From Ceratodon purpureus (Eukaryota; Streptophyta; Bryopsida; Pseudoditrichales; Ditrichaceae): a stretch of 64,000 bases of DNA. The stretch's first letter is position 1. Every line of letters begins with the position of its first letter. The translations under genes and the position numbers were made by a program. Location: the NCBI GenBank assembly GCA_014871385.1, contig CM026426.1, positions 72,196,756 to 72,260,755 on the forward strand, given 5' to 3'. Shown piece after piece: positions 1,937 through 41,847 of the stretch. The notes beneath the pieces were generated by a model. The model was not told the DNA's origin. It did no database searches and worked only from the letters and a program-made list of their open reading frames with translations.

Positions 1937-4900
1937 ATGGCAGCCTCCGAGAGTGGGTAAGTTGTCCAGTCGGCTGTCCGCCGACGCTCCCCTTCTTGAG
2001 TCCTTCATGTTTCCATTTTCTCGCATGGGTTTGTCCCTCCCGTCGGCTGTCCGCCGACGCCACCCCTTCTTTTGTCCTTCATGTTTCCGTTTTCTCGCAT
2101 GGGTTTGTCCCTCCCGTCGGCTGTCCGCCGACGCCACTCCTTCTTTTGTCCTTCATGTTTCTGTTTTCTCGCATGGGTTTGTCCCTCCCGTCGGCTGTCC
2201 GCCGACGCCGTGACCCCTTCTTTTGCCCTTCATGTTTTGTGTTCTGTCGCATAGGGTTGTTCCTCCCGTCGGCTGACCGCCGACGCCACCCCTTTCTGAG
2301 TCCTTCATTTTTCTATTCTCTCACATGGGTTATTCCCCCCGTCGGCTGTCCGCCGATGGGGAGGGCGTGTCCATCCGCCCCGTCGGCTGTCTGCCGATGG
2401 AGTGAGAATCTGATGGTCTAATCTTGTGATTCTAATTTTGCAGGGCGAAGGTCGACTCCACCGTAAAACCAAATGGGTTACGGTGGCTCTGTGACAAGGT
2501 TGTTGATCCTGAAGTAGAAATACTCGCACGGGGCTTGAAACCGAGGGTGACATTCCTCGCTGATTCGAAGATAACGGAGTGGGGCATCACCTGGCGTGAC
2601 ACTCCCATGTCGCTGGGCTTCGTGACCAAAATAGGTCAGAAGCAAATGGCAGGTGGACCAAGATTTGAGATTATTGGTGCCAGGGAATGCGAGGATAACA
2701 ACAACGTGTGCTTGGTGTTTGCATCGGTTCCTGTCGCGGAGGGCACACCAGTGGACTGCTTCGTGGTTGTAATTCCGGTTGAGAAGTGCATGGACGGCTT
2801 GTGCTCTAAAGAAGTACAGGATGCGGCTACTTGGGGCAGGGGTGAGAACATAGCTGTTGATCAGATACTCGACGTGATTGATACGCTCGGGGACAAAGTG
2901 ATGGAAGAGAAGACGAAGAACTCGGTTAAGCCTTCAGCAAAGAAAAGAGGCGGCCGCAAGTCTGCTGTAGAAGCGGGCACTGTTACAGTCACCCCCGAGA
3001 CCGGAGAGACACAGACGACAGGGGAGTCATCGAGAAGGAAGAAGGGAAAGGCAGCGGCTGCTGAGGGCGAGGGTGGGAAGAAGAAAGGTGGGAAGAAGGA
3101 AGAGAAGAAGCAGACCGTGGCGGAAGCTCTCATGCTCGCAAACAATCTCACTTCCAAAACAAAGGACACCGACGTCTTTGCCATGTACCAGACGTTGGAG
3201 GAGGGACTTGGGCACTGCTTCCCCAACGGGCAACGTGCCCTTCCTTGTCAGATTCCATATAACAGGATACACATAGCTCCCGACGAATTTAAGTACAGAG
3301 CGATATTCAGGAAGAGGCAGGATCAGATAAGTCTTTTCTACAAAGGACTTGGAGCAATCCGGAAGAAGCCCGAGCTGTACTGCCTTCCTATGAGTGGTGA
3401 CCCCAGAGTAAAGGATCCAGTGACGGGCGAGATTAAGCTTAAAGGCTTGGAAGGACTTCTTCGACCTTGGCATGCCCTAAATATCAAGTATTCACTTACA
3501 CTGGATGACGGCACATCTAAGCTGGTACCTTGGTATGAAGATGAGGGCATCCACTGGTACATAATTGGGGGCCAGCACACGTTTGAGGCTTGTCGAGAAC
3601 TGGGAGAGAAGGAACCACTGGACTCTCCTATGCGGCAGTATTACCTTAACGAGGATATCATTCCTGTATATGCTGATAACAAGGATACCCTCATTAAGGT
3701 CTCTAACGCATTAAACATCGAGGTGAAGGATAAAGTCGCCGAAGTAAGTTTCAGGTCCCAGCTGGCGAAGATGCGCGCAAAATGGATCGAGCGGGGGAGG
3801 ATCGACAAGAAAGATGACTTCAGCGCATGGAAGGTAATTCACATCTTCCTCTTTTCCTGTTGTTTACATGTAGTTGAAAGTCGTCGGCGGACCGCCGACG
3901 CTCAAGTGGTTCTCTGTATTGTAGAAGTGGGATTTATTTATCAATGTCATTTTCTTCTTACTTGCAGGAGTTCTGCAAGGAGTACCTCAGTCCGATTCTC
4001 GGAAAGTCCCCTACGTCCCAAACCTTCAAGCTGCCCTTAGTCTTCGTGTCTGACGAAACATACAACGAGTGGCAACTGGTGTTCGACGCCTGGGAGGAGG
4101 GGAGGATCATCGGGGAGGACGGTTTGAAACCAGGATTTCCCCCAAAGCCAGCCCGCCGGGACATAACACTCAACGACATGCAGTACGTGATCGGTCTTCG
4201 GGACCACGAATGCAAGAGGCTGGCCGAGGAAATTCTGGACCTTAAAGTGTACGTCAAGGTCACTGGGAAAGAGGTGGTTCAACGGGATGGAACATCAGTG
4301 GAGAATTGGTGTAAGCATGTGAAATACGAGTATGTTGTCCGGAACGAGCTCATGTGTATTTACAGGGGCTTTGCACTGAAGAAACCAGGGACTGGAAAGC
4401 ATATTGAGTGGAGCATGGATGACTGGAATTCCCTTGAAGTCGAGAAGGGGTTCAATGATACAATGGTTAGTAATATTCGGGCTGACTTGGAAGATAGTCC
4501 TGAGGGGAAGGAGTGGCTTAAGGGACGGAATCATCCGCTCACGCCGTCGCACGGGCCAACACCAGAATTCTTCAAAGACATTGTGCAAAAGTACTGGAAG
4601 TCGGATGTGGACCAGTCTTTGCAGTCGTCTGTACAGTTCGATGTTCGGATTGCAGAGGACCTGGGTGAAGTGTGCACAGCTCTTGACGTTCGCGGAGCAT
4701 TCTCCTTCAACAAGGCGCAGTATGAGATGTTCGTGGTCTTTGGCTACGATCCAGCGGGAAAGGAGATGCCTAACATGCGACAACAACACGTTATAACTGT
4801 CGCTGAGAGGATTCACCGTGAGGTGGAGGAGGAGGTCATTCTGGATGGGGAGGTAGATACAATTAAGGTGAATAAGCTTGTCACCCCATCCTTGTGGCTA

Positions 4901-6618
4901 CTCGATGCTGAGTGTAATCACACTCTTCAAGGCGTGTCAAGGCTGACGAGTAATTCGTGGACGGTTCATACTATGTAGTACTTCCCTGATAGTTCCGCCG
5001 GGTTTCAAAGGAGTTCTTTCATTGACTCTAGACCCAAGGTTCATGTGTCCGTTATGTATCCAAAAACAACGCCCGGGGATGCATGGAATACCTTCTCGGA
5101 CTTCACTGGTTTGAAACGTCCGCTTCCTCCCTATGTGGACGAAGGAGAAGATCATCTTGGGGAGGATTGGTCAAATGGACACTGCCACGCTAGTTACTCT
5201 TTTCTCCAATCTCTTCTGGAGAAAGCGATGCAGATTGAGGACGTTCGGGTGATCAATTGCTGGGGAGGGGGGAACGTCACGGCCCTCGCTCTGGTAAGTT
5301 AATGCAGTCTCTTCTGGTGCCTTCGCTGTTTGCTCACCGATCGTCGGCGGGCAGCCGACGCTGATTGAATCCTTCGTGTTTCTTGGGTAGAAGATTTCGT
5401 TAACCGTTTCGTCTTGTTCTGCTGCAGAAAAACCATTTGACTGTAATTGAGATCGTGCGTACCAAGGAAGAGAGATACGAAGCGCACTGTCGGATTCGGA
5501 ATATGACGTTCATTCCGGGCGTTTATAACGTGCCCGTCCAAGCTCCAGTTCAGACCACGCAGTCTGGGGCCGGGCCGTCTGCCCCCGCCTCTGCTAGAGG
5601 CAGGATAGGCTCTCTCACGGCTGCCGACTTGGGTGTGAATGCGGAGGAGGCCCATTTGGTCGGAAAGGGTGGATGTATGGGTTCGGGGAAGTTTGCGGGG
5701 GTTCGCTCACACAGTTATCTGGACTCCGACGACGATGTCGACGAGGACCCACCAGATGTACCCGACCCAGACGTTGAAGATGAAGCTGGAGATGCTGAGG
5801 AACAGCCAAGAAACGAGGAGGACCAAGCTGAGGCTCGCATTCCAACTGGAGATGCAGAGGAAGAGGAGCGAGACACGGAGGACTTAGACTATGAACCAGA
5901 ACCCGACGTATCACCACTGGAAGAATCGAATCCTCGCTACGTGAACCCACCGCTGTCGCAAGTTCTACGGGAGACCGGAACTGACTCCCTCAGCTTTGGT
6001 ATTATTTCTCCTACATTTCAAGAGCAGGAGACTCCTCCCGCCGAGCCAGAACGTGATGTAGACCAGGCGGGGCGTCCAAAGAAGATGCAGGTTCCTCTAG
6101 CATCGAGGCCTGACGATGAAGTGGTTCTCCGTGTCCAGAAGCCAACCCAGGAGCCTGCAGTGAGCATTGAAGGGCATGTTCCTCCTGCTGCCGTCGGCGG
6201 GCAGCCGACGGCAGACGAGCAAACCTCATCTAACCCCTCTGCCAAGACCAAGTTGACAGGGAAGTCAATCGCATTCGTCACTCAAGGTGTGAAGGGCGCA
6301 ACTCGGATGATTGGCCCGGATGAGAACCCTCTGGTCAAGACACAATCAATGAAGAGAAGTAAGACCAATGGTACTGCGCAGGATTCCTCTCTTGTGGGTA
6401 ACTTATCCCGTGATTCCTCAGGGGTTCAGGAAGGGGAGGAGTCCTCTGGGAAGGGCAAACGGAAGGCTGCTTCGAAGAAGACTTCCTCCAAGAAGGGCAC
6501 ATCTGGGGATCTGCTCATGAGTCCCAGGAATGTGGACGCTCCAGAGGACGTTCTGTCACCTGTGCGGGCATCCAAACGGGAGCCTAGGCCGAAGAAGCAC
6601 AAAGGTGGAGGTCAGTGA
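1937..6618 (+). CDS. Gene A: ParB-like / DNA-methyltransferase-like fusion protein
   Basis: Four exons join in frame: 1937-1956 (ATG at 1937), 2444-3833, 3968-5293 and 5428-6618 (TGA). Donors (GTAAGT, GTAATT, GTAAGT) and acceptors (TTGCAG, TTGCAG, CTGCAG) are clean, giving 1,308 codons with one in-frame TAG at 4976-4978. Order: N-terminal beta-rich region; Lys-rich linker (about 155-225); a ParB/DGQHR-like domain with WYIIGGQHTFEACREL near residues 378-393; a methylase-like half with VVFGYDPAG near 731 at the DPPY position; a SAM-type motif CWGGGNVTALAL near 901-912 followed by VIEIVRTKEERY; and an acidic, NLS-rich tail. Known ParB-methylase fusions are prokaryotic or phage proteins; the fold call is by eye. 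The DPPY box is degenerate, so catalysis is doubtful. Gene B (36.3-41.6 kb) is a homologue with two introns at the same positions. Confidence 0.75.
1969..2398 (+). repeat. 74-bp tandem repeat in gene A intron 1
   Basis: Intron 1 (1957-2443) is almost filled by a minisatellite of about 73-78 bp. Each unit contains TCCTTCATGTTTC, TCGCATGGGTTTG and one palindrome. GTCGGC starts fall at 1969, 2042, 2116, 2190, 2268, 2341 and 2382, the last unit being short. Confidence 0.9.
3834..3967 (+). other. Gene A intron 2 with one palindrome
   Basis: A 134-nt GT-AG intron carries a single GTCGGC-N5-GCCGAC copy near 3885-3901. It is phase 0, and gene B has an intron at the homologous place (37718-38043). 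Confidence 0.85.
5294..5427 (+). other. Gene A intron 3, splits the SAM motif, one palindrome
   Basis: A 134-nt phase-0 intron lies between the codons for the SAM-type loop (NVTALAL) and the next strand (NHLTVIEI). A palindrome sits at 5343-5359. Gene B has an intron (39373-40032) at the same point. Confidence 0.85.
6193..6209 (+). repeat. E1 palindrome inside a gene A exon
   Basis: An exact GTCGGC-N5-GCCGAC copy lies in exon 4, in the low-complexity tail, and is translated as VGGQPT without disturbing the frame. Confidence 0.9.
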
Positions 6619-6719
6619 ATCAGGCGGTGGCCCAGTCCATCTTTTAAATGCCTGCATTGATAATTTAGTGTAGTGATCGGGCGCTAGGATTGTGTTAGAT
6701 GTTTGTACTGCCAAATATG

Positions 6720-6725
6720 AATAAA
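6720..6725 (+). terminator. Gene A poly(A) signal
   Basis: AATAAA lies 102 nt downstream of the gene A TGA and before the next palindrome-bearing gene. Confidence 0.6.
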
Positions 6726-6819
6726 TTTTTGGTAAATTCCAAGTTGTTCGCTTTCCCTTTTTTCAAATAATGTTGCTTGCAAGTCGGCTGTCCGCCGACC
6801 GTCATCCTAACCGTCACGT

Positions 6820-7620
6820 TTGTCCTCTGCTTCGTTTTCTGTCACTCCAAAGTCCGCGGACAAGGAAGTCCATGGAAAACTTCACGAAGATAGACCCAGT
6901 GCAGTTCTGGAGCAGGGACCTCCACCTCTGAATCCACTTCACATAGCCCCGGAACAGGCTGGTACTCAGGTACACGATCCAGTGCTGAAGTACTTTCTGG
7001 TTCTGAATATTAACGGCCTGCTATTAGTCCAGACGAAGCAGGGTACTAGGTGGAATACTAAACTTAGACCAGGTTTAGAGAATTTCCTAGAGTTCTGCCT
7101 GGACAATTTCGAGGTGGTCTTCTGGAGCTGCATTCAGGAAAAGAGGTTCCAGATTCTGTGGACAGCGTTGCAGCAGCGCTGTCCTCGTCTAGATGCCGAA
7201 GTGCGCTACAAGTTCGACCAGAGTTTCTGCGAGACTTGCGTACATAAGGCTAGTAGGGAGTTTTATTTGAAGAGACTCCAGACCCTCTTTGACCTCGATG
7301 ACGGGCTGAAGGGGACGGGGGCGTCTTCAATTAACACTCTCTTGGTTGATGATTCCCCTTATAAGAATGTCGCAAACACTCCTTGGAACGCTGTGCACCC
7401 TACACCATATACCTTCGAGTCGAAGGAGTCGGAAAATAAGAGGAATTATCTGCTTGGAGAATTGATTCCTTGGCTTACCAGTTTGAAAGAATCCAAACTC
7501 CCCGTGCCCGAGTACTGCCAGAAACACTCCGAATTTGGTCAGCGTCGTCTGTTTCCGGGGGATGAAGCTTATAGTCTCTTCTCTCCACACATTGATTGCC
7601 CTAAACGAAAGAGAACATAG
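6820..7620 (+). CDS. FCP1/NIF-like pseudophosphatase, copy 1
   Basis: The open frame of about 266 codons contains no methionine, so its start must come from an upstream exon; a possible acceptor is near 6850. The HAD/FCP1 (NLI-interacting factor) layout is clear: FLVLNINGLLLV at the DxDxT position, LRPGLENFLEFC, FEVVFWS and NTLLVDDSPYKNV. Both catalytic aspartates of the DxDxT loop are asparagine here, so phosphatase activity is unlikely; plant relatives with DxNGLL are known. It ends TAG TAG at 7618, with AATAAA at 7709-7714. A palindrome at 6783-6799 lies upstream and another at 7661-7677 in the 3' UTR. It is the first of three tandem paralogues and may be element cargo. Confidence 0.7.
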   Translation: MSSASFSVTPKSADKEVHGKLHEDRPSAVLEQGPPPLNPLHIAPEQAGTQVHDPVLKYFLVLNINGLLLVQTKQGTRWNTKLRPGLENFLEFCLDNFEVVFWSCIQEKRFQILWTALQQRCPRLDAEVRYKFDQSFCETCVHKASREFYLKRLQTLFDLDDGLKGTGASSINTLLVDDSPYKNVANTPWNAVHPTPYTFESKESENKRNYLLGELIPWLTSLKESKLPVPEYCQKHSEFGQRRLFPGDEAYSLFSPHIDCPKRKRT

Positions 7621-7708
7621 TAGATGTAGAAACTGTTTTAGAGAGCATGCACATGATTCAGTCGGCTGCCCGCCGATGGGATCTTCATGTATTTAGACTT
7701 TTTCAGTA

Positions 7709-7714
7709 AATAAA
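7709..7714 (+). terminator. Poly(A) signal of FCP1-like copy 1
   Basis: AATAAA lies about 90 nt after the stop and downstream of the 3' UTR palindrome. Confidence 0.55.
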
Positions 7715-7877
7715 GTTTTCCTCCTTTTAAATATATGAGAACGAAACTCAAGATCAAGACTCTGTGTTCTGTCGTGGGTGTCTTATTATGTCTCCATTTG
7801 TACACTAGAGCAAGTATGAATTGTGAGCATGCGATTGATCACCCATGTTTTCTTGGAATGTGTCCTTCATTTTTCAG

Positions 7878-8975
7878 GAGTCACTGGAGGATGAAGCTGA
7901 AATTGAAGTGCACCAGGGACCTTCCCTTCTTAGTATGCTCTTGGAGGAGTACCCAACATCTCCTGATGGTGATGCTCACAAAGAAGAGTCTCCGGGAGCG
8001 GAAGCCGAGAATGAAAGTGATGGGGAGGACGAGTACGACTATCCAGTCGGCGGGCCGCCGACGCTGTCTGCTGCACATAGCTCTGGCCGGTGTGCGATGG
8101 CTTCCACCTCGTTCGTCGAGACCAACGTCGCGATCCCGCGCACCGGTTCCCCGCGCGATGATTCCGTCAGTGTCAGCACTGATATTATTGCGCGTAATAT
8201 TGAGGTACCTCTCCAACGATACTACCTTGTCCTTGATATTAAGGGATTGCTCATCGCGGAGCACCACGGGTATATCGGTGATGACCAGAAGACAAAAATT
8301 CATATCCGGGCTAGACCAGGACTTCTTTCATTTCTAGAGTTCTGCACGGCGAATTTCGAGGTAGTCTTTTGGTCCACGGTTTCTGAAAAGAATCTCGATC
8401 GTCACTTCCAGAAGCTGTTAGCCATTCATCCTTTGCTCAGGAGCAATTACAGACGCCTTCCAGGATTCTGGTGTGATATCTCAACAAGGACTAATCCGAA
8501 TGGGAAACGGGAGTACTTGTTGAAGCGTCTGGATAGACTTTTCTGCGACACTAGGCTACTGGCTCGATCAGGTGCCACTGTCTAGAATACCCTACTGGTA
8601 GACGACCGCCCTTATAGGAATGTACTTAATCATCCATTTAGCGCTGTCCATCCTAATTCTTTTTTCTGGGACTCTGCAGAGTGCAAAGAACCTCAACCCA
8701 CCCCCAGTCCCTATTTAACTAGGGTAGTTACACCATTCCTTGCAGGACTTAAGCAGTCTGGATTGGATGTCCAAGAGTATTGTAGGAAGAATTCTAGCGT
8801 GGGGAAGCCACGTCTTTTTCCAGGATCTCGCAAATACCAGAAGTATAGGGAGGTTATTCCTTCTCATGCATGCGGGTTTGACGTCCCGGGTGATCCTGGA
8901 TCTTGGTTTGTGAATTTACCTTGTCCTCCGGAGGCCCCTGGTAGTTCCATCATCGGCGGGCAGCCGACTGATTAG
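7878..8975 (+). CDS. FCP1/NIF-like pseudophosphatase, copy 2, with in-frame TAG
   Basis: The exon starts after TTTTTCAG at 7877. An acidic lead includes a palindrome (8045-8061) read as VGGPPT. The HAD core follows: YYLVLDIKGLLIA (first Asp kept, second replaced by Lys), ARPGLLSFLEFC, FEVVFWS, then TAG at 8583-8585 directly before NTLLVDDRPYRNV. The frame stays open to TAG at 8973, just after another palindrome translated as IIGGQPTD. Apart from the internal stop the domain is complete and closely matches copy 1, including the C-terminal EYCxK and RLFPG motifs. It is probably decaying, or needs readthrough. Confidence 0.65.
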
Positions 8976-9284
8976 AGCCTATATCAGCGGCGCCACTAGT
9001 TTTAAAAATCACATATGATACTCTGCACTCTTTAGTTTAACAAGCTAAGACTGTTCCCTTTCTGAACTTCCCTGCACCACACAATTGTTTCCAGTGCTGC
9101 AATTCGGTACTTCTTTTTGTAGATGCATGCATGGCATTTCACTTGCTGCACATTTACCTTTGAGGTTTCTTCAATGCATCGTTTTGTTGGCGGGTCGCCG
9201 ACGACTTTGAATGTAGTCCATTTCTTTCATATACTTCGTCCTGTTCCTTGATTTCCTTCACTGATTGCATTTCATATTCTTCAG

Positions 9285-9948
9285 GGTTCCTCGTTTTATT
9301 TCAAATGCCTTCACGGTCCACCTCATCATGTCAAGAAATGTATTGTCCTATGCGTCAATGGCCTTCTCTGCTATGTGGATCCCAGGATAGAGGCTTTGCC
9401 ATGGGATACGCATCGGAATGTAGTGAAGCGCCCAGGTTTGAAGAAGCTTTTCGACATGCTTTTCTTGCATTTCCATGTTGGTCTGTGGTCGAAGATGCCC
9501 TTGGGAGAACTGAAGCCTTTACTCACACATATTCTGCCGGCCGGTGTAATGGAGAGGCTGTCCTTCGTGTATAGCAGAAGTGACCTTATCGACCGGGAGA
9601 ATTTCCCCTGGAGTTATAAGACGTTAGGTCAAGTTTGCTCCAAGGTACAGTCTAGAAACGTCTGCAAACTAGATCAGGTGCTATTTGTGGATGTTGACCC
9701 GAGGTCATTGAGGAGGACACCAAACTGTATGTGCTACATTCCTTGGCCTTTTCAGGGTCATCTAAACTTTCCGAACGATGACGGCGTTATACCTAACATT
9801 GCTACAGATATCCTTCCTCTGGTTTATCCCTTGCACAAGTTCGGATCTGTACCGGAGTATATGGCGCAGGCGTGTAGGCCGGGGCAAGTGCACTGGGCAA
9901 TTGAAGCTGCGAGAAAGTTTGGACGTGCACGAGTGGACTGGACTGAAG
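9285..9948 (+). CDS. FCP1/NIF-like pseudophosphatase, copy 3, truncated
   Basis: The exon begins after ATTCTTCAG at 9284. It encodes CIVLCVNGLLCYV (Cys and Asn replace the DxDxT aspartates), KRPGLKKLFDMLF, FHVGLWSK and VLFVDVDPRSLRR. It is more divergent than copies 1 and 2. The frame runs straight into the 735-bp TIR element at 9949, so its last codons belong to that element and the natural 3' end is lost or displaced. The intron before it carries a diverged palindrome near 9187-9204. Confidence 0.6.
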
Positions 9949-10683
9949 GGGGAGAGCACAATAAAGTGGACCACAAAGTGCAAAATGTGACCACCAACAA
10001 GTGAATATGAAGTGTGCTGTTTTTTAAGGCTCAAAGCTGATTTTGAGCATTTTGGTGTAGTTTTTGAGCATTTTAGTCACTTTTTAGGGTGTCATAAGGT
10101 ATCTTATATACATCTTTATAAAAAGAATATCTTCAATTGAAACTTAATTTGAAGTCAATGTAAAATGTCCATTTTTAATTTAATTATTTTTCACTTTTTT
10201 TTTCCCCAAGAACTCACAGTCTTCAGGAACATCCGGAAAGAATATTGAAATTTTGAAAAAGATAAATTAAAGAGCCCCAAAAGTTTCGTCGAAAACACTG
10301 TCCTGAAAACGTCGGAACGACACTTTTAGTCCATCCGAGGTTCCAAAGTACTGAAACAGGTACATTTATATAACCCTATTTCAAAAGCGGGGTGCCTAGC
10401 GAAATTAAAAGTGATATCGGACAAAACCCTAAACCGTTCTGTTCACTTTTCGAAACGAGTCAGTTCACTTTGTCCGAGTTCGACATCTCCGTTTTCCATG
10501 TTAAACTCCATGTCTTCTCCCGCCACTTTGGAACGTTGAAGTCCATCAAGTCTATTTTCGGTATTCCAAACTTAATCTTGCATCGACATAACGTAGATCC
10601 CACTTTCCCTAGTGTTTACGGAAGGGGCTGAAATTGGTGAAAAGATAAGCACTTTTTTGGTCCACTTTATTGTGCTTCCCCCC
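9949..10683 (+). mobile_element. 735-bp non-autonomous TIR element, copy 1
   Basis: The ends are G-rich inverted repeats containing AGCACAATAAAGTGGACCA. Length and sequence match copy 2 (42081-42815, opposite orientation) almost base for base. A 79-codon ORF inside differs by one residue between the copies, but no transposase is encoded. Flanks TGAAG and TTGGA do not form the 5-bp duplication seen at the other two copies. It lies exactly between the truncated third FCP1-like gene and the truncated last exon of gene C'. Confidence 0.85.
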
Positions 10684-12630
10684 TTGGACGATAGGGGATG
10701 TTGATGGTCGTCGAGCTCGTCTTCAGGGGATGTACAATTGGGATCGAGATTGTCCTGAATCGCGTTGAGGACGTTGCCCACTTCCTTGAAGTTCCAGACC
10801 TTCACGATGGAGCCATCAGGTTCTACTCGAAGAGGCAATCCGTTCTCATCTACCAGGGGGAACAGAGATGCCTAAGTACAAGAGATAGTGGGTGAGGCCA
10901 TCATCGGAGACGAGAGAAGGAGTTAGGGTAGGAGAAAGAAGCAGAGTTGAGGGTTTAGGCCTGGATAGCAATAAGTAGATGACACCGAAGGGAGATGAAT
11001 TTAATTTTTTAGATTGAGAGAGGGCAACAGAATGTAAACAGTGACAGAGTGAGGGGTTTAGGGTTTAGGGCACGAAGTATGTGTTAATAGAGGAACTTTA
11101 ACATTCAAAGTGACAAATTCGATAAACAGTTGAGTCTTCAACACTCATCATATACACGCTTCAGTTGAAAATTGCCAAATTCAAATGTGATTGTTTGTCT
11201 CGCAGAAACTAAGGTGACTGGAATTGAAGATTTGTACAAGCCTAGAGCCAAATTCAACCATACGTACTTACAAAATTACTACAAACTGGAGATCCGTGGC
11301 CATAGACTAGACCAAGTTTGCAATTCTAAAGTAAGAACCAGAGATCGGCATATGTGAATTGCGATTGTATCAACGCTGCAGGAGTACCTTTAGCTGCTCA
11401 TCTCCAAAGTAGACATGGCGCAAGACTGCATCGATTTGGGTTAGCTCTTGCATGTGTTTGACATTGACTGAGTCCGCGGTATCTTGTAAAATTTGCAGCT
11501 CCGCCTCCATAGTGCAAAGACTCTCCTCTCTAGCTTGGACACGATTCTGGATGGCAATCACGCGTCGTTGGAGCAGATCCGGCACGGTGCGACTTGAATC
11601 ATCGGTGTCGTCGCTCATCTCCCCTGAAATCAGCTGCTCTCTAGTCATAGACTTTGATCCGTGGCTTGACTCAAGGTCGTACACTGAGCTACTTGGGCGG
11701 TGATTGACATGCCATGCAAGAACAGTACCATGCAACGGCAGGACAATGTCCAGATTTATCTCCTCCTGATGTATCTTCAGTTGTTCCAGACGAGCGCGTG
11801 TTAGTTCAATTGACTATCGCTTCTTGCGTATCTCCTCCTGCAAGCCTTCGTTGAATTTTGTTATGCGACGCCTCTTTGTCTTCGCTGCCAGCTGGAATTT
11901 GTCTTGGATCAGGAAAAGTCCTTCAAGAAACGACCTTATCACGGTTGGAAGGTTGGCAACGGGAATTGGAGTATCTTCCTTTACTTCTGACTGGATTTTG
12001 TTTTTGACGACGGGTTGGGGGTGTATTGTGGCATCCGCCATTTGCAATTGAGTAGCCACCGTCTGCAATCAAACGACATGGGTTGGGATATAAGAAGCCC
12101 GATACATGGAGAAATTCCGTGGAAGTCAACGACTAAAGAAGACGACAATCACCTCTCGCTGGACATGAGGTGCGTTGAGGATGGCCGGTACATTTGTGCC
12201 TGGAAACACCCTGGGCCACGTGAAGGGCAGGGGTCGAGTGAGGTCTTTATACTTCTCTTGTGGCTCGAATTCCGTCTTCTTCTGTCTTGGAAAACACCGC
12301 TTCATAGCAAATTCGCACCAGTCAACCTCCAGTCCTTGAGCTTCGGCCATTAAGCCACGAGCAAAGTGTAGTGGTAGGCGCGGAGAATCCTTCATCTCTC
12401 GCTGGTGCACTCTTTCGAAGAGCCCCTTGACGTAGTTGTTGTACATATGTGGCGCCGTCTTCTTTGCGGAGGCAATAACCATCACGGTCTTTTGCTCCCC
12501 AGTAAACAACCACGGATTCTTTGCGATAGAGGAGCACATTCTTCGGATCGCCTAGAAGAAATCCACCCAATGGAAGATGAAGAGCACGGTTCAGCCATTT
12601 CCTCACGGTCTCCTCAGGTGATTCGGCCAT
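10684..12630 (-). pseudogene. Gene C': homologue of gene C, frameshifted and truncated
   Basis: It starts MAESPEETVRKW at 12630. RKW, LPxxG and YWGAKDRDGY align with gene C, then the frame shifts near 12475 to AKKTAPHMYNNYV and VHQREMKDSPRLPLHFARG, DWCEFAMKR. An exon ends at 12153 (GAG|GTGATT) and rejoins in phase 0 at 12062 (TTGCAG|ACG). That exon continues to a donor near 11388, through one TAG at 11814-11816 in a coiled-coil context (EEIRKKR, stop, SIELTRARLEQLK). A last exon after CTTAG near 10873 encodes VEPDGSIVKVWNF and runs into the TIR element at 10683. The function of the VHQR/FA domain is unknown. Confidence 0.6.
10880..11370. other. Intron of gene C' with two telomere-like motifs
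   Basis: This lies between the last two exons of gene C' on the minus strand. Two TTTAGGG units occur at about 11053-11068. I see no coding sequence. Confidence 0.4.
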
Positions 12631-14481: not shown

Positions 14482-17348
14482 TTATTCAGAAACAAATCTC
14501 TCCAAGGAGGCCTTTATAATGTCCAGTTGTTTGAGTGGAATCTTCAGCGTTGGATACTTGCCAAGCCCCCGCTCGTTGACATTTTTTTTAACTTTTGATT
14601 TCCAAGCTGTTATGACTGCATCAGTACTCTGCCACGACTCGGGTACATCCTTATCAACTGTCCAACAAAGTCTCCCATCCACATCCCAGCCAATATAGAA
14701 TTTCAAAACATTTTCCTCTCGCGAAATTGGATGGTAGAACTCTACTTGGATTGAATTTGGGAGGTCAGCGTTCAAATTAGGGTCAGTCAAGGCCCTCGCA
14801 AGCCAGAAAGGACGAACGTCTTCATTGCAGGGTCGTAATGCTAAGAAGTACCCTGTAAAAAGGTCTCGCGCAACATGGAATGACGGTCCTAGGCGATCTT
14901 GTTTGTGACCAACAAAGTGATCATCCTCTACGAACTCCTTGCGCAAAGTTCCATCTTCCTGAAACTCGTCTTCGACAGAGTGAGCGAGCCGAGTGGATGG
15001 CCAAAAACCATGCTCCAAGGTGGATACTGCATCAAAGGGGATGGCAAGAGCGTCTATAACATCGTTCCAATAGTATGAGAGTGGCTCATAGATTCTTCTG
15101 GACTCGACTGAATCAGAAGATAGCCTCTCCCAATGATCTACAAAACCCGACAAGCCCTTAATCACATCAGGCAAGTGCCGCATCTCGCGAGGGGCCACGG
15201 CACCAAGAACACCACGGGGCCATAAAGATCGACCTTCTGAATCCTCCTTCCACAACTTGATGCCACAACCATCTCCTTTTCGCAACCAGTCGTCGACGTG
15301 ACAGAAGATTTTTTACTTCATGACTAGGCATCCAGAAGAATCTACATACAATTTGAACTGATGAGCTTTAGTGTGACCCATTAACGTATTGTCGCCATCA
15401 AGCATCCACTCCGCGATGAATTTCTTGAAATCTAGGACCTCCTAAATGAGATGAGGAATTGTTGGTACAGCTTTATTTTTCATGAAGGACTTCATGAGGA
15501 GAGGTACTGTGGGGAAGTCCTCCCTCCGCAAAGCCATGCTCCATCGTCCGAAAAAGGCATCAATATCGTCATGAGTATGGCCGACCAGCATGAAGTTCAC
15601 GTACACTTCGCAAAACACCCGCTTCGCGACTAATAGGGACCAAAATGAAAATACAAATCTATTCTTGTTATCGCTGACAGCGTTATCCATTTGGACGTTA
15701 AGAATGGGAGGCAATGGTTTAGCAGCAACAGGAACCTGAGGAGGAGGGCCAAGAGGATCCAGACACATTTGTGAACCATGCAAAAGCGCGGCATACAATG
15801 GGTGAGACGGATTTTCTTGATAGAGTTCCCTAGAGGTGGATTTAGGGGGTGACTCAAGATCCCGAAGGAGCTTCGCAAACGATCCAACCGTGTAATTAGC
15901 GTCGTGTGAGTAAATGTCAAGGCCATAATGGGCGTAACGCTGATCCACATGCCCATGAGCAAGCATTCCCGTGACTGCGAGAGGAAGCTTCATGAGACCG
16001 TCTAAGTGTTTGACCTTGTGGGATAAGGCCGGCGATGCAGTCTTGGAGTGGTCCATCTTCTCATGCATAATTGTAAGAACTTCATGAGGAGTAGCCCTTG
16101 ACATGAATTGATTTAGGTAGTACAAGTCCCTATGCACCATTGCAGAGTCATTGTGCAGCCTCATTTTCTTAGACCATAACAAGACGCCTGAGAGCCTGTT
16201 GACGTCAACTTCTTCTGAGACTGGAACTCATCACATTTTGAGCAACAAGCGAAGTTGTCTCCTGCCCGTTTGGCGTAATATTCTGGATAGCTAAGCCTCC
16301 TGATCTTGCTCAAGTTAGAAGCGGACATAGGAGGCAATCCACAGTCCGCTAGATAATCATCGAGGATCGGAATCTGTTCCTTCCATTTGAAACTGGAAGG
16401 CAGAACTTTAGCAACAAATGTCTCCCTTGTAGGCAAAACACGACTCTTGTGGGGCATGTGGTCGGCATGCCTGTCAAGGATGGCCCCTAGGACGGCACTT
16501 GCTACCACTGTGTGATTTCGAGGTTTACGTAAACCAGTATTACCGTGAAATTGAGCTTCGAAACCAGCAGCAGCGTACTTGGCATTTCTATAAAATGTAC
16601 TGGAGCTCACTCCCATGATCTTCATCCAGGCGAAGGGGCAAACATCTATGCCCTCCAGAGTCACCACACTCCTCCCCGCTGAATTCTTGTGGATCTGTCT
16701 ATGCACGTCGAGTTTTATGTGGTTACGGAACTGCACTGTGGTCTTGTCGTACATACGCGACTGTAGAGTAGAGATTTTATCTCTAGGATAGTGTTGGACG
16801 CATAGGTGAGCGCAGCACGTGTTTGCCGCTACAGAGTTGATAGATGGCTGGGTCATCAGAAACTCAGCGTGACGTGATATAGGTGGGGGGGTATTCCTAG
16901 AGGAGTTATCATACGATCGGGTACGATCTCCCAGGGATCGACTACGCTCCGCAACCCAACGGTTATACACATCACGTTGACTATGGTGCTCTAGGCTAAC
17001 TCCATCCAGATAGACGTGGCTGATAGGCCACGTTTTGAAGGAGTACCTCCAATCATCCTCTGACTCTTCTTTGACTAACGAACGTGATACCTGGACGACG
17101 ACAACGGAATCACCAAGGGGACCAACCGTGTCAGATACGAAGCTGGACCATGGGTTCCGGATCAAACCCTCTGCTAATGGGATATTGTCGTCACTGTAAA
17201 TTGTTACAGTCTTGTTTTGCCACAATCTTGTGGGTACAACCACAAAGTCTTGAAGCTCTGGGTTTAAGGGCGCTTCAACCGGTACCTCGTCATTTGAGGA
17301 GTAATCCATTATACGTGGAATGCAACAGATCCAATTATATGAGATCAT
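14482..17348 (-). pseudogene. DUF7869-type transposase, copy 1 (one frameshift, two internal stops)
   Basis: Three minus-strand segments align end to end with copy 2. Segment 1 (17348-16161) has a beta-rich N-terminus, then HIKLDVHRQIHKNSAGRSVV and a Cys pair (CCSKCDEFQ). Segment 2 (16182-15442), in a shifted frame, has MHEKMDHSKTASP, ILNVQMDNAVSDNKNR and VGHTHDDIDAFFGRWS, the hallmark motifs and probable acidic catalytic residues. Then TAG (15444-15442) and TAA (15315-15313) break an otherwise continuous frame leading into the C-terminal GIKLWKED and RPFWLARALTDPN region. It ends TAA at 14482, with an in-frame TGA four codons later. The family assignment is from memory of DUF7869 proteins. 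Confidence 0.7.
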
Positions 17349-17599: not shown

Positions 17600-18177
17600 G
17601 TGCTCACATCGTCCGAATTCAGAGTGGCAGACTCAGAGTACGCTGACGATTTCCACTCTCAAACGTTTACCAGTAGTAAAGAAAAACACTGCTAATACAC
17701 CAAGAATTGCAACAATCGCAAGCATAGAACAACCAAACATCAATGATGTGTGCTGATGATCGGAGAAAACTGAAGAGAAGACGTACAAGAGAAACGGCGC
17801 AATATAGCTTCTACCCAAAAAACAACGACCTCCAAGTGAGCGCCCAGAGCTCCTACATGCGAGAGAAGCAAGTGAGTAGAGAAAAGACTTTGAGCAGGGA
17901 CGATTCCAAAGGTCATCCTCTAACGTGTGACGGTTATCTTGCCGCTTCGATTTTGAAAATAGGCGGGAATCATGCATGACCATTCGTCCATCCACATTTG
18001 GTGGTGTGAGCAAGCATGGGAAATACAGCTTTCCATACTTCTCGGCCCTTTACGTAGATGCAGATGCAAAATATTTGGTGCATTAATTGTATTAAATGGG
18101 ATGGGTTGGACACGTCATAGCGCAAGACAGAATGTTGACTTTTGGCCCCGAACTTATCATCTTCTATCAGGGTTCAA
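17600..18177. promoter_or_regulatory. Probable promoter region of transposase copy 1
   Basis: This lies upstream of the minus-strand transposase. GGCGGGAA at about 17962-17969 matches the E2F/DP consensus; a similar site lies upstream of transposase copy 2. No supported gene; a 126-codon minus-strand ORF (17633-18013) has no recognisable domain. Confidence 0.3.
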
Positions 18178-26479: not shown

Positions 26480-27335
26480 AGTTCCATTGGGCTAAACCGA
26501 GTTAGCTTATTGTGAGCTAAACCTATTTAGCTCAGTATGAGCTAAAACTATTTAGCTTATACTAAGCTAACAAGGTTTAGCTCATAATAAGCTAAATAAA
26601 TTTAGCTCAGAATGTGCGAGTTTGGTTACTGTCATAGTGACCTCTACCATTTCAAAGATATGAAGCAAAATCTTCTACGACGCAAAGAGCCATACAGGTT
26701 TAGCTAACGGTGACCGTGATCGCATTATCTTATCCTGCACTATTTCAGGACCGTCAAACACAAAATGATAATTACATTTTAAGCTCTCAGTAAACTAACC
26801 ATCTTAGCTCATTGGGAGCTAAACCAATTTAGCTCATTTTGAGAGAAACAAATTTAGCTCATTGTGAGCTAAACTAATTTAGCTCACTATGAGCTAAACC
26901 AATTTAGCTCATTGTAAGCTAAACCAATTTAGCTCATTGTAAGCTAAATAAATTTAGCTCAATGTGAGCTAAACCAATTTAGCTCAATGTGAGCTAAACC
27001 AATTTAGCTCAATGTGAGCTAAACCAATTTAGCTCAATGTGAGCTAAACCAATATAGCTCAATGTGAGCTAAACCAATTTAGCTCAATGTGAGCTAAACC
27101 AATTTAGATCATTATGAGCTAAACCGTTTTAGTTCATTGTGGGCTAAACCGATTTCGCGTATTGTGAGCTAAACCAATTTAACTTATTGTGAGGTAAAAT
27201 CTACTTAGCTCATTGTGAGCTAAACTGATTTAGGTCGCTCTGAGCTAAACCTATTGAGCACGTTCTCGACTATACCATTATAGCTAATTGTGAGGTGAAC
27301 CAATTTAGCTCATTGTGAGCTAAATTAGATTAATC
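26480..27335. repeat. Array of about 20-25 palindromes, 25-bp unit
   Basis: The consensus unit is a palindrome TTTAGCTCA-N3-TGAGCTAAA plus a 4-bp linker (CCAA). Between about 26800 and 27130 the units are head-to-tail at 25-bp period and nearly identical; toward both ends they are spaced and degenerate. It lies on the 5' side of the transposase. Confidence 0.95.
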
Positions 27336-31110: not shown

Positions 31111-31111
31111 G

Positions 31112-35366: not shown

Positions 35367-36243
35367 TTTAGCTCACTCTGAGCTAAACTGTAACTAATTA
35401 GATGCAAAGTAAGCCAAAAATGCGTTGAGAAGCAATAAGTACAAGAGATGTTTAACTCACAGTGAGCTAAAGTTGATCGAATCTTCAATAATGTATCTAA
35501 AGGGTAGTAGTATAATCCCGAGGCCAAGTATTATTTTGCTCACTGTGAGCTAAACCTCTATCCGATATAGCAGAATTTAGCTCATAGTGAGCTAATGATA
35601 GTAGCATTTGTAATTACTTAGTTCAAAATAAGAGAACTTCTTGACAGATTAACACTACTTTAGCTCACAGTGAGCTAAATTATGCCTAATCAAATATCAA
35701 TTTAGGTCACATTCAGCCTATTTGTCTAGAAAACTAGTAACATACTACACTTACTTCAAGCATTTGGACAAATTAAGATGAGGTTTGAAGAAAGTGGATC
35801 ATCCTGAAATTAGAATAAGGCTCTAATTTAGCTCATTGTGAGCTAAATACATACCCTCTCAAGACAACAATAGCCATCATTAAGCTGTTACATTGTTGTA
35901 GATGCAATACAATTTAGCTCACTGTGAGCTAAATTATGTTTCGATTGTAGTCTAATAACCAGGGAACGTGGTGAAAGTGTCCCTTTGGATTTGAATCTAA
36001 TTAACTTTTGTTTTCTGAATTCAGGTTCTGATTTTCATCTACAGTCACTCCAAAGTAATCTTTGAGCATCTTGCGGAAGATCCACAACGGTAAAAGGTTT
36101 AGCTCACAGTGAACTAAATAATTTAGAATATCAATGTATAAATTGTGATATCAATAACATGTTTCTAAAGTCTACTTAGAGGATTGTGATGATAGCTTAC
36201 TAGAAGTGTAGAACTATTTTTATTCAGCTCACTGTGAGCTAAA
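35367..36243. repeat. Nine E4 palindromes upstream of gene B
   Basis: Starts at 35367, 35451, 35534, 35576, 35659, 35827, 35913, 36098 and 36223, each a 21-bp palindrome with 0-3 mismatches, dispersed rather than tandem. Confidence 0.9.
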
Positions 36244-37764
36244 TAATTTAACTAAGTTCTTTATGTTCATTGCAGATGACAATCACACCTAAAGTTCTCA
36301 TGCCGGGCGGGTATGATATGAGTCACCTCGAGCCCTTCATCGAGCCATTCATAAACCCGGATCCTGATGAGCCATTTTTTGAAGCCTCACTTTAACACTC
36401 CTACGGATTGCTTTGGAAGTTCAAAGACCATGTCAAAGGTTGGTCTATCGCTGTCTCAAGGTACCAGAAGTTTGTGCGGATACTACACAAAGAGAAGAAT
36501 TCGCCACTATATCTAGATCTATGTGTCGTCGAGAGAGTAAAGGTAATTGAGGAGCATCACGGGAGTTACATTGTCGTGGTTGTTGGGGCCGTTGATATAG
36601 AGTCTGAGTGTGACCTTACACACGTCCACTCCCTGGTCATCGAAGTCGGGAAGCAGAAGATAAACTTTGACCCAGAGCCATTGATTGAGAGCTTGATAGG
36701 TACATCGAGCGAAACCTTGATGGACAAAATTCAGAAGGTGTCGTGGAAGAGTGCTGATGGTGGCCCACTAAAAGCAGTTGCACTTGGGCAAAGACTGTCA
36801 CGGGTTTTCCTAACACCTACCCACTTCATCACAGACTCAGTTGTAGCGAAGGCCCCACCCGTGCTGTTACAGAGTGCAGCTGTTGTCTCTACCCGCGACG
36901 ACTCTGCTACACCATCTCGAGGCAGTGTTCAACAACGAACTTCCTCGGCAGTTCCAACTCCAGCGAAATCCAGGGCTTCAAAGCACCCGAGATTAGAAGT
37001 AGATGAAGACGGTCCTTTGAAGAAGAAAAAGAAGCAAACAACAAAGGCGGGGAGTTCTGGATCAGAGCTTACGCAAACAGAGGAGACGAAGAAGACTAAG
37101 AAGAAGGATAAGGAAGTCCTAGATTACGAGAAGTTCACGGAGATTCAGAAGACCTTCTCGGATGACTGTATCGAGGCCTACGTATTCAATATGAATACGA
37201 CATTCCCGGTGAATGTGAAGCAGTGCCACATTGCAAAAGATGAATATATCATCGGAAACTTAGAGCGGGATATAGTAAAGTCCGTGAAGGAGGAGCTCGT
37301 ACACATGGGTGATATTAATCAAAGGCAAAAAGTTTGCCTCATGCCAGTGCAAGACAATATGGAGCTGTTGCCAGAGAAGCCAACGTTGTGGGATCAGATC
37401 AAGGACGGGAAGTTTATGATAATTAACGGACAACATAGTATTATTGCATCGCAGGAGCTCCAAATCCAAGGATGTGGAGAAAAACGAAAGAAAGAACTCG
37501 AAACTTGGGATGCATACATTGTGTGGTCGAAGGATCCTCTTATTCTTGTGAGAACATCAGAATTCTACAATATGTGTAACCATCTCAACCATGCTCAACC
37601 TACGTGGGGGACAAATATCTTAAGCGCCCGTAATGTCTGGATCAGCCAGGGAGACCAACGAATATAAAGGATAGTACGAGAAACAATGATGCAGTTTACA
37701 ATGTAAAGAAATTTCAGGTAAACTTCTCACCCATAGAAGGATAAAAAAATGTATATGTCGTGAA

Positions 37765-37785
37765 TTTAGCTCACATTGAGCTAAA
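37765..37785 (+). repeat. E4 palindrome in gene B intron
   Basis: A palindrome (one central mismatch) lies in the 326-nt intron 37718-38043, homologous to gene A intron 2, which carries the E1 palindrome instead. Confidence 0.85.
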
Positions 37786-39439
37786 TTCACATCTTCCGTT
37801 CTCTCACCGTGAACTGATCCCGACTGTAGTGCATCAATTCTGCTACATCAAACTCAATAACACTAGGAATTAAACGTTACTGTCTTAAACAGTTTTTTGA
37901 TATGCTTTATCATTTAGTTTTTATATACTCTGCTAATACAGTGTTAGTCCCATTATTTATACCGTGTTGGCAATCTTCGCTATGTTCTATGTGTGCTGAA
38001 TTCCATAATTAATAACATATTTCAACGACCTGTTTTTTTCCAGAAATTTCTCGAGCTTTTGATCAAACGGTTTCAGAATATCGACCCCAATAAAGACGGT
38101 AAGAGTGTATAAGGGCTTGCGGATGTGAAGAACGAGATGGTGATTATCACCGCAGCCGAGGATCATTTCATGTTGTGGAGGGAATTTACAACGAAGCATA
38201 GTACTGGTGAACTGATTGATCCGGAGACTTGCGAGCGCTTCAATCAGAAGAAGGGGTTTAAGGGTGGTAAAGCATTCCAGCTTCAGCGTAGCTTCTTTCG
38301 CGGGATGGGTTTCATGACAGAAGAAGAAACGAAGGCATTGGTTCGACATCTGTTGAAGCTTACCAAGAATTGGAAGTTTAGATACCCTAAAGTTTCTGTG
38401 CACAAGACACGTGGTACGGTGTTACCGCATCACTACTCTTCTGGGGATTGGATGGCGAGAAAGAAGCGTAAGAGGATATGCATCCAAGAGCTTCACGATG
38501 TCAAGCCCAGTCTTGGGCTCTGCAATCCTGACTATACAATTAACAAGCAGAAGTGGCACGATTAGAAAGCCAAGCACAATGTTTCGAATGCGACTTTTAG
38601 TGTCCTCCTCGATCGGCCTGACAAGGGATTCTACGGATTTCGCGCCGAGAAGAAGGGTATGTTCAAGAGGGCACGGAATTTGACGGAGCGGTGGCCAGAA
38701 GTTTTCCCATTCTTTGCCAGATTCTTGGAGGTAAAAGGAAACTTGGTGCCTCCAACCGGTCGAATCCGAACTCGGCTTTTCAACGCTGTGAAGATGGAGT
38801 TTGGAGTACAGTGGACCTATGACAGCATCCCTCACCTAAGCCTAGCATTGCTGGATTTTTGTGACACCCCAGGTCATTCAACGAAGGACGACACGGTGGA
38901 TAATCCTTTCTTCAAGGCTTTCCTGAAGAAGCTAATGGCGGTGAAGGGGCCTTCGATCTCGGACCCGGAAGTGTGGGTTTGGATTTCTGCTACGCAGAAA
39001 CGAAATGCCCAAGCGATCGCTTACGCAGAGAAGCACATGAAAGGATACTCAGTAGTTCCTTCCAGTTACATACCTGCTAAGAATGAACGCCTCAACGACC
39101 ACACCACCCGAAACTCTGGAAAGGACGAACTGTACTTGGTGTTCTTGTTGCGTGCTGGTGGTAAACATGACAAGAAGAAGGTGAAGGCGTCTTATACAGC
39201 TCCAAATACGAACTACTATACAGTGTATGGGCTGTATAAGGAAGCTCATCTACGGCTCAACGCTCGGGAATTGCAAATGGAGTTCTACCTGGAGTTACTG
39301 AATACATTTTGTTTGCCGGGTGAGAACTTCTGGGGGGTCTTCAGTGGAACCAAGTGCATGTTGGCAGCTCGGGTAAGCTTCCTTCTCATTGTTTTTTAGA
39401 AATGTATTTGCTCTAATTGAGATGTGTTTGGATATTCTA

Positions 39440-39980
39440 ATATTGCTCAATGTGAGCTTAATCGAATATGCTTTGCGTAGCTTATTCAGTTTTTGTCAAA
39501 ACTAACTAAGTAGTATCTAAACTGTTTAGCTTACAATGAGCTAAACGTGATAAATAGATTATTGAATTTAATATTACACTGTTCTACTACACGCTAATAC
39601 ATAATATTAGGTACCATTTTTTGGTATGGTGGTGATGTTCTTTTCTATCTAAAAAATTTATTTTCCCGACAGTGAGCTAATTCATAAAAGCACTGAGTGT
39701 TGTTGGCATTTCAGTAAACCATTTGATGAACTGAGATCTTGCTTAACCATTTAGCTCATAATGAGCTAAATTTTTTATCTTAATCTTTAATGTTATATCA
39801 AACTCCTTAGACTACTAGACTAGAACGATTTCCTTCTGTTCAAATGTTTTCGGATTTATAATATGAGGCAGCGTCAATTATTTTTGGTGGTTAAGTTTCA
39901 TAGCACTTCCAGTGGATTGTGAAATAGATGTGTAGCTCCTCAGTATGATACGTAGTTATTTAGCTCATTGTGAGCTAAGT
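39440..39980 (+). repeat. E4 palindromes in the intron splitting the SAM motif
   Basis: Copies lie near 39523, 39750 and 39959, with a decayed one near 39443, inside the intron 39373-40032. Confidence 0.85.
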
Positions 39981-40381
39981 CAGGCGGATTTGAAGGTTAC
40001 TAACAGTGTTAAGACATGTGTATGTGTTCCAGATATATGGTATGTTCTACTATGGAATCATTGACCACAACTTTGATGAGTGTTACAAGGATATGTCAAA
40101 GCTTGTACCATCCCTGGATATCAATGATTTATCCACGAGAACTCTGTCTATGATTCAAAAGATACACAGCCCGCACTGGAGAGGTAGCAGTTCCTTGAGA
40201 GCGACGAGTTTGATCGTCCTCTTGGTTTAGACTTGTCCACCGACGATGAAGACGAGGAGTCACCTGATGACATCGATGACAATGCTGGTGCTGCTGAGGA
40301 CCTTCGTGAAGATATAGGAGCTGGCTTTGATGAAGAGGATGCACCGCCGCCTAGCCCACGGACAAAGCCTAGGCAGCTGCT

Positions 40382-41130
40382 ATTAGCTCACAGTGAGCTA
40401 AACATGGGTGCACCGCGGGCTCGAGGCTCTTGCCCTCTACCTGAATCTCGCTTTAGAAGTCAGATTTCTAGATTGGATCGCCGGTTAGTGAAGAAGTTCA
40501 GTCGTGAGCAAGACCTCCATGCTGATCTCGTGGGATCATCATCTAGGAGAAGGACCGAAGCGGAGGAGGAAGACTCCAGGGATAATGAAGAACCGATGGA
40601 AGATATAGTTGTCGTGCAGGTCAAAGCCGCGGTTTTAATGGGGGTTCCCCTAGTACCACTAAGCGACTCCGAAGATGATGATGAAGATGTGCCCTCTCCC
40701 AGTGCCAATTGCCAGGGCGAATCGTCGAGACCGGTTATTCCTACAGTCGCTGTGCATCTCGAATCGGTTCTAGAGGATGAAGATGAGGTATTTAACGCCG
40801 CGAGTAAGGCTCCACATCCTGGGGAACCAATCGTCAAGAGAGACATTGATTGGTTTGATTGGAACATGGCGCGGAAAAAGAAGAAATAGGAAAAGAGTGA
40901 GTGGGAAGCAGAGGCCACTCCGATTCTTGTGGAGGAGGCTCGGCTGGCTAAGGAGAGGGCAGAGACTCAACTCAGGGAACAGTAGGAGAGAGACAAGCAA
41001 CGCGACAAGGAGATTGCTGACATGAAAGCCATGCTCGCTCTTATGGTTGCTCAGAACTCTGGTTCCATCTCCGCTCTAGCCTTGGAGCCTTGTCCGAGTA
41101 TCAACCAGCCGTTTTTAGCTCACAATGAGC
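40382..41130 (+). repeat. E4 palindromes inside gene B coding sequence
   Basis: A 21-bp copy at 40382-40402 is read in frame within the Ser/Pro-rich tail; a second, decayed copy at about 41113-41130 follows the coiled coil. Confidence 0.85.
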
Positions 41131-41847
41131 AAACTAGCCTGGATGTACCGGGGAGTGTAAGCTCCGACACCGCTATGGCTGAAAATCCTCCCCCTCTAGA
41201 ATTACCTGTGATTACCCCTGTTTTGGTTGAAACAGCCTGGGAGGAAGACCCAAGACCACCTGCAAGCTAGATTCCCCGGTGCCTCGAACGCCGGATGAGG
41301 ATGATGACATTGATAGAAATGTTGGTGGTGACCGAACCTTAATGGAGGTTGTTAAAAACAATTCTAATGTGTCTGAGCAGGGGCAGGGTATCTCGGTGAA
41401 CAAGCAGAGCTTGAAGGAAGGGCCCTCAGATTGCCACTTGGATACAAATGCACCTACAGCTGGCGAAGACGAGGAGTTGTTAGATTATGAGGACTCCTTC
41501 TTGGGAGCTACACCCTTCTTTTCCTTCTACAATATGCAGATTGCCATAGCAAGTCGCAGCACAGATGTATTTAGAATATTTTTTTGCTCATTACAATGAA
41601 GGGCATAGTGGCCTGAAAAAAAAAAACGTCAACTTCTCTATATTTCAGCTACAGGCATCCCATTTTCTCTGAATAAAACTGTCACATGAATAACACATTC
41701 AAACTGAACTAAAAGGGTTGGTTTTAGAATGACATACTTGTGTATGCTGAATGCATCTGCAGTAAAGTATCCCGCCCACCCACACCAAAACATAAAATAA
41801 GTGCCGGACCGTATACAGAGCCATTCAGTCTGTAGTCACATGGGAAA

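Follow-up and report, generated by a model that had tools for sequence, protein, structure and literature searches.

Two broken genes of the moss Ceratodon purpureus as candidate descendants of a ParB–amino-methyltransferase fusion

Do mosses keep a gene family that descends from a ParB–DNA-methylase fusion of the type found in phages, and if so, would its proteins still modify DNA? This question was raised by a stretch of 64,000 nucleotides of Ceratodon purpureus (assembly GCA_014871385.1, contig CM026426.1, positions 72,196,756 to 72,260,755), hereafter the window, whose numbering is used throughout. It carries two genes, A and B, which an earlier note on the bare sequence had described as transposon-borne ParB-like/DNA-methyltransferase-like fusions. 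With moderate confidence, we propose that both are broken copies of a eukaryotic family derived from a ParB–amino-methyltransferase fusion, the intact members of which are probably non-catalytic DNA-binding proteins. If true, a prokaryotic DNA-handling protein was taken up and repurposed by plants, providing a testable case of a methylase fold retained for recognition of DNA, not for its methylation.

Both genes of the earlier note exist and could be read as exons. Gene A (2444–3833 + 3968–5293 + 5428–6618) forms a single continuous frame except for one internal stop, and gene B consists of 36276–37717, 38044–39372 and an exon from 40033, read for its first 40 codons. All four introns read are of the GT–AG type. 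The ParB-like and S-adenosylmethionine (SAM)-loop-like motifs lie where they had been placed, and the strand announced behind the loop was recovered past intron 2 of each gene (VIEIV in A, GIID in B). The features are as follows.

2444–3833, plus strand: first exon of gene A, with the N-terminal region, the Lys-rich linker and the ParB-like part; open for 463 codons from 2445; last residues AWK, then GTAATT; joins in frame; 21 relatives aligned, hidden Markov model (HMM) E 1.4e-181.
3561–3581, plus strand: IIGGQHT, ParB/DGQHR-like motif of gene A, at which the family profile aligned with the phage ParB motif.
3834–3967, plus strand: intron 1 of gene A, 134 nt, GT...AG, located after the ParB-like part as is intron 1 of gene B.
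3968–5293, plus strand: middle exon of gene A, with the middle domain and the methyltransferase-like C-terminal half; in-frame TAG at 4976–4978.
5258–5293, plus strand: motif-I-like CWGGGNVTALAL of gene A, turn WGGGN, last base directly at the splice donor.
5294–5427, plus strand: intron 2 of gene A, 134 nt, GT...AG, right behind the motif-I-like turn.
5428–6618, plus strand: last exon of gene A, with KNHLTVIEIV (strand-2-like) and then a long acidic/low-complexity tail; stop at 6616–6618.
36276–37717, plus strand: first exon of gene B, with the N-terminal region, the Lys-rich linker and the ParB-like part; 22 relatives aligned; TAA at 36393–36395; the reading frame changes within 37634–37664.
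37419–37439, plus strand: IINGQHS, ParB/DGQHR-like motif of gene B, at which the family profile aligned with the phage ParB motif.
37718–38043, plus strand: intron 1 of gene B, 326 nt, GT...AG.
38044–39372, plus strand: middle exon of gene B, with the middle domain and the methyltransferase-like half; TAA at 38110–38112 and TAG at 38563–38565.
39337–39372, plus strand: motif-I-like VFSGTKCMLAAR of gene B, turn FSGTK, last base directly at the splice donor; the top hhalign match of the family profile is the N6/N4 methylase profile, at this place.
39373–40032, plus strand: intron 2 of gene B, 660 nt, GT...AG, right behind the motif-I-like turn as in gene A.
40033–40152, plus strand: start of the next exon of gene B (first 40 codons), IYGMFYYGIIDHNFDECYKDM..., strand-2-like.

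Both window copies are broken, A by one in-frame stop and B by three stops and a frame change. The TAG of gene A has no counterpart in the relative P0001, hence intact copies exist. A start of gene A at 1937, proposed by the earlier note, was rejected because 1965–2356 is a tandem array (5.3 copies of a 74-bp unit); those relatives that extend that far (e.g. P0002, P0004 and P0008) start within about 12 residues of the equivalent of 2450, and P0002 has a Met start at about 2450, where gene A of the window has no Met.

Judged from the alignments, the common descent of A and B can be regarded as firm. Their ParB-like parts, compared as family profiles with hhalign, aligned with a probability of 97.7 % (E 2.2e-12, 260 columns), and a separate profile comparison using other alignments gave E 9e-10. 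For the middle domain, the corresponding values were E 9.4e-6 and E 2.5e-4. Controls with reversed B profiles gave P 0.09 and 0.46. Additionally, the ParB-part HMM of each family picked up the window gene of the other family (E 1.1e-11 and 1.3e-4), and the middle exon of gene A was matched by the HMM of the B methylase part (E 0.0036). The shared order of parts described in the earlier note is thus backed by homology of the ParB-like part and the middle domain, whereas its beta-rich N-termini aligned only in the Lys-rich linker (P 0.013). Columns 6–212 of the A-family HMM aligned with the N-terminal region of a B-type locus named L082 (i-E 0.011), to which we return below.

Intron positions correspond as well. 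In A, B and L082 alike, the first intron comes after the ParB-like part; in A and B, the second comes after the motif-I-like turn. Among the 24 B relatives whose frame covers the turn and was read past it (P0071 and P0083, fragment alignments without the turn, were left out), the next residue is Val in 23 and Ile in one; a Val codon, GTN, is what would be expected at a splice donor. Two members of the A family, P0001 and P0025, likewise run on into Val.

The family is large. Protein searches, for A scoring the 7,999 candidates with most shared words, retrieved 25 relatives of A (every E <= 5.1e-24) and 26 of B (every E <= 7.2e-38), and a profile of the B methylase part retrieved 42 proteins (every E <= 3.1e-42), three of them already among the earlier relatives; the plant relative set comprises 90 proteins (P0001–P0090). 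The sole named relative of A is a Physcomitrium patens UniRef entry (41 % identity across 28 % of the query). Three 90 %-identity clusters (P0003, P0022 and P0059) hold 50–62 member sequences. This is a many-copy gene family with introns, apparently undescribed; the titles and abstract openings among the literature matches listed describe no eukaryotic ParB–methylase family. Constraint on recent copies looks weak, since their near-identity to gene A is not confined to exons: P0001 shares 421 of the 441 residues compared in the exon and 22 of the 23 in the translated intron; for P0002, the counts are 418 of 462 within the exon and 56 of 67 past its end.

A single locus, L082, came up as related among the 10 pattern matches of a prokaryotic-genome scan with the plant ParB part. 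Its contig is titled as a cyanobacterial metagenome-assembled genome and carries an open B-type gene; because this gene has a GT–AG intron, L082 was taken as eukaryotic contamination, probably from a plant and perhaps from a moss. When viral contigs were scanned with the methylase part of the plant proteins, 60 stretches matched the pattern, none of them a relative by tblastn, and the relative P0034 had no match in phage records.

As yardsticks for the two folds, six phage ParB–methylase fusions were taken from phage records. A viral-contig scan added 80 loci, 74 of them with a frame longer than 330 amino acids, and these and the six fusions made up a fusion alignment of 80 proteins, 76 of which carry (D/N/S)PP(Y/F/W), the ParB part being not confirmed member by member. 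A wider methylase alignment contained 66 sequences. The plant profiles were compared by hhalign with 74 targets, i.e. the fusion, the ParB part, the methylase part, the wider methylases, four reversals of these, 33 clusters of further stop-to-stop frames in the loci obtained (gene status unchecked) and 33 reversals of the clusters. Methylases also make up one of these clusters, dec0, with the motif present in 51 of the 60 members sampled.

Based on these comparisons, the ParB-like assignment is likely. GGQHTyqAC is almost invariant in the A alignment (21 relatives) and INGQHSitAS nearly so in the B alignment (22 relatives), and the trait of ParB/Srx proteins is seen, i.e. a beta strand leading into a conserved glycine turn with His, and then a helix that contains Ala. 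For the A ParB part, phage ParB ranked first, the fusion second and dec0 third, and all three matches include GGQHT. For the B ParB part, the fusion ranked second, phage ParB fourth and dec0 seventh, all three including INGQHS; ranks 1 and 3 were a reversed decoy and the reversed methylase. PHROGs were scanned with two sets, the B ParB set and the methylase set; among the 22 weak families listed for the former, two are annotated as 'ParB-like partition protein' (E 0.019 and 0.048). When a phage ParB HMM was searched against the 90 plant proteins together with reversed versions of them, nine of the first 14 rows fell at the GQH site, with E 0.25 and worse, and three of the 14 were reversed sequences. 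At the expected site, the score of a short ParB yardstick HMM on the plant consensus was reached by 3 of 1000 shuffles for B and by 49 of 1000 for A.

The methylase-like assignment of B is less secure, though on balance probable. The wider methylases ranked first and dec0 second against the B methylase part, both on motif I, followed by another cluster (dec4) at rank 3; the fusion (rank 4) and phage methylase (rank 8) were again on motif I. Consensus shuffles reached the score of motif I in 19 of 1000 cases and that of the region just after DxRxxP in 40 of 1000, both at their expected places, and on the window copy of B this latter region was matched at the right place (28/1000). For the A methylase part, motif I was also where the matches to the fusion (rank 17) and to phage methylase (rank 20) fell.

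The motifs themselves are altered. Motif IV, (D/N/S)PP(Y/F/W/H), occurs in none of the 26 B-family methylase rows; its place is taken by D-(F/L)-R-x-x-P in 23 of them (P0065, P0074 and the window copy deviate), and (M/L/T)YPK stands in the equivalent region of the A family. Where FxGxG is expected, 25 of the 26 B rows have a GxK turn, mostly FxG(T/S/G)K, the remaining one (P0075) being truncated, and gene A has WGGGN, i.e. Asn at the second glycine. A check that does not depend on the yardstick alignments comes from the sequence across intron 2. There, B reads IYGMFYYGIIDHNFDEC, with an acidic residue 21 places behind the Phe of FSGTK, a spacing that we take to be that of canonical FxGSGTT...GIE; A reads KNHLTVIEIV, with an acidic residue 18 places behind the Trp (no statistic is attached to either distance). 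The likeness to phage ParB–methylase fusions holds for motif positions and for weak profile matches, but not for the catalytic motif.

Column shuffles of the yardstick, 100 for each match on a motif, give a measure of these matches. The real score was reached or exceeded by 10 shuffles for B methylase, five for A ParB and five for B ParB, and each of these scored above 130 (values shown, 130–141) compared with 22.6–29.6 for the real matches. We judged these high scores to be an artefact of gap-rich ends and set them aside, because they exceed 130 and, in the cases listed, span few columns (3–9 in one list of five, 3–23 in another of ten) at or near the end of the template; with 60 shuffles per match, the pattern had been the same (5/60, 4/60 and 4/60). 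None of the remaining 90, 95 and 95 shuffles reached the real score, the next best being 21.2, 20.3 and 18.9, respectively. Mismatched pairs gave no match for the ParB HMM on four methylase halves and for the methylase HMMs on the B ParB consensus; for the methylase HMMs on the A ParB consensus, 265 and 413 of 1000 shuffles reached the score.

Several results weigh against a ParB–methylase origin. The matches on the motifs are short (19–33 columns), with low scores of about 20–30. Profile searches, which the earlier note had proposed as a check, went largely against the two folds. No ParB or methylase family was found in Pfam among eight window pieces, 10 relatives and 23 B ParB rows, nor in NCBIfam among the ParB sets of 22 and 23 rows (ParB parts only were scanned there), and alignments A1, A2, A3, A4 and A6 had no convincing match to ParB or methylases in PDB. 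Nor did Pfam show an N6/N4 methylase family, PF01555 included, in the 5 and 25 rows scanned from the B methylase set, in the window pieces or in the relatives; PF01555 was matched by all four phage references tested. Among PHROGs, the best match of the B ParB set is a family without known function (E 0.0019), and the 10 weak families listed for the methylase set include no methylase. Run on 1,208 frames and reversals of the fetched loci, plant HMMs found L082 and no phage ParB or methylase gene above chance. When the plant proteins were searched with three phage methylase HMMs, a reversed sequence came out on top each time. The motif-I HMM matched the window copy of B at the wrong place (36/1000). 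The methylase part of the A family fares worst: its best hhalign match is a reversed decoy, with the wider methylases second and off the motif; in shuffle tests the window copy had no match and the consensus matched at wrong places (289 and 381/1000); and the profile comparisons gave no alignment between A and B in their far C-terminal, methylase-like parts. A methylase-like reading of A would draw on motif order, on where its introns lie and on the homology to B in its other parts, with no support from its own C-terminal half.

These negative searches (Pfam, NCBIfam for the ParB parts, PDB, and PHROGs for methylases) are what would be expected if A and B belonged to a host multigene family unrelated to ParB proteins and methylases, their motifs being chance glycine turns. 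We consider such an origin unlikely, though not negligibly so: motif placement agrees in two domains and follows the order of the phage fusions, the scores lie above those of the usable shuffles, and two of the PHROGs are ParB-like.

In a second explanation, an undescribed DNA transposon has A and B as its main protein, be it the transposase or a DNA-binding partner; the likeness to ParB and methylases would be superficial, and the high copy number would come from movement of the element. It would account for the many relatives with their clusters of 50–62 members, for the breakage of both window copies, and for the intron of P0001 being as little changed as its exons (22/23 vs 421/441), as in recent, little-constrained copies; it is also partly compatible with a fusion origin, as a transposon could carry a ParB–methylase descendant. 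However, no transposase profile was found on A, B or the scanned relatives, the methylase-like motifs are kept across the B rows, and a self-comparison of the window revealed no repeat pair enclosing A or B (a separate repeat search covered 1–12000; target-site duplications were not searched). The transposon is thus improbable as a full account, and the earlier note's term 'transposon-borne' found no support in the window, where the clearest mobile element near the genes, one with terminal inverted repeats (TIR), is separate from both. We give equally little credence to a bolder combination, namely a mobile element carrying an ancient ParB–amino-methylase fusion with its centre rebuilt around DxRxxP, which would amount to a new DNA-recognising or DNA-modifying machine in mosses and streptophyte algae. 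Least probable is an active DNA methyltransferase, element- or host-encoded, that would lay a DNA mark with a changed active site: DxRxxP in 23 of 26 rows might be such a site and motif I still has a glycine, but the canonical motif IV is in 0 of 26 rows and the second glycine of FxGxG is replaced by Lys in every untruncated B row and by Asn in gene A.

Descent from a ParB–amino-methyltransferase fusion therefore stays our preferred explanation; the two folds and the phage-type ancestry are what we infer from sequence. The ancestor would have been a prokaryotic or phage-type fusion, with a ParB/Srx-fold domain first and a permuted N6/N4 amino-methyltransferase at the C-terminus. Replacement of motif IV would predate the divergence of those B-family members that were sampled; motif I is altered in both families. 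Since motif IV is replaced and motif I changed, intact members would most likely be DNA-binding proteins and not active methylases, in which a ParB-like clamp or reader of DNA is joined to a SAM-fold module that has no catalytic role and may recognise bases. A modified site so widely kept would fit DNA recognition better than canonical methylation.

Mobile elements and repeats are frequent elsewhere in the window. A TIR element of about 737 bp occurs three times (9948–10684, 42080–42816 and 48971–49709), with GCACAATAAAGTGGACCA near both ends. The first two copies are inverted, 32 kb apart and 99.6 % identical, from which the element probably moved recently; the third is at 70 %. The element is found on the downstream side of both gene B and the region of gene A, but it was ruled out as a carrier of either, each copy being complete in itself. 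The window also holds a DDE_Tnp_4 transposase on the minus strand (42777–43460) and a reverse transcriptase (47672–48946), with no shown tie to A or B. A palindrome-like repeat of the TCGGCGGGCAGCCGACG type is found in both introns and the last exon of gene A and around the phosphatase-like frames described below (e.g. 237, 3883, 5341, 6191, 8046 and 8950). A second one, TTTAGCTCA / TGAGCTAAA, forms 25-bp tandem arrays at 26491–27324 and is scattered singly over 35367–41114, in and around gene B including both introns. The stretches 49918–50935 and 52315–53312 are mutual inverted copies (94 % identity over about 1 kb) and contain large G-rich and C-rich minisatellite arrays. A TTTAGGG-type repeat, which corresponds to the plant telomere unit and gives the window a plant-like character, lies at 18169–18255.

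Just downstream of gene A, 6811–10001 holds three NIF/SCP-type phosphatase-like frames. The catalytic motif of such phosphatases is DxDx(T/V); the first two frames look like inactive relatives, because NINGLL and DIKGLL replace it at the catalytic-site position. Two DUF7869 frames (15445–16227 and 24434–25096, both on the minus strand) lie in stretches with about 71 % DNA identity over 300 bp; the term DUF7869 was not found in the literature search. Searches for tRNAs and RNA families found none.

Finally, the plant proteins can be set beside known systems. The closest in layout are phage fusions, i.e. the Wolbachia phage WO methylase (L086), Evamon gp82 (L084), the Lacachita 'ParB protein' (L087) and Planktothrix phage PaV-LD ORF098R (L002), in which, as in the plant proteins, ParB comes first and a permuted amino-methylase last, with motif I near the C-terminus and short profile matches at both motifs. 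The six whole phage yardsticks have 374–499 amino acids and carry DPPY (6/6) and FxGSG (5/6), whereas motifs IV and I are altered in the plant proteins. The latter also have introns, a further region at the N-terminus, a middle domain ahead of the methylase-like part and, in gene A, an acidic tail. A comparison may also be drawn with DGQHR/DndB-type ParB-fold proteins, with which the plant motif has the GQH core in common; the relative P0051 reads IIDGQHS, and the plant motif has Thr or Ser for Arg. No NCBIfam match to DGQHR/DndB-type families was found among 45 rows (22 + 23). Among eukaryotes, bdelloid rotifers have the amino-methylase N4CMT. This captured bacterial amino-methylase is reported to leave an N4-methylcytosine (4mC) mark (PMC8885841); the plant family would likewise be of bacterial type in a eukaryote, but is without the canonical catalytic motif and has a ParB-like part fused to it. 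Charophyte and dinoflagellate retrotransposons are reported to have acquired cytosine methyltransferases (PMC5890265), a precedent for mobile elements with a DNA-methylase gene in a streptophyte alga. Those enzymes are of the C5-cytosine type and lie inside the element, while the plant family has an amino-methylase-like half and no shown linkage to an element.

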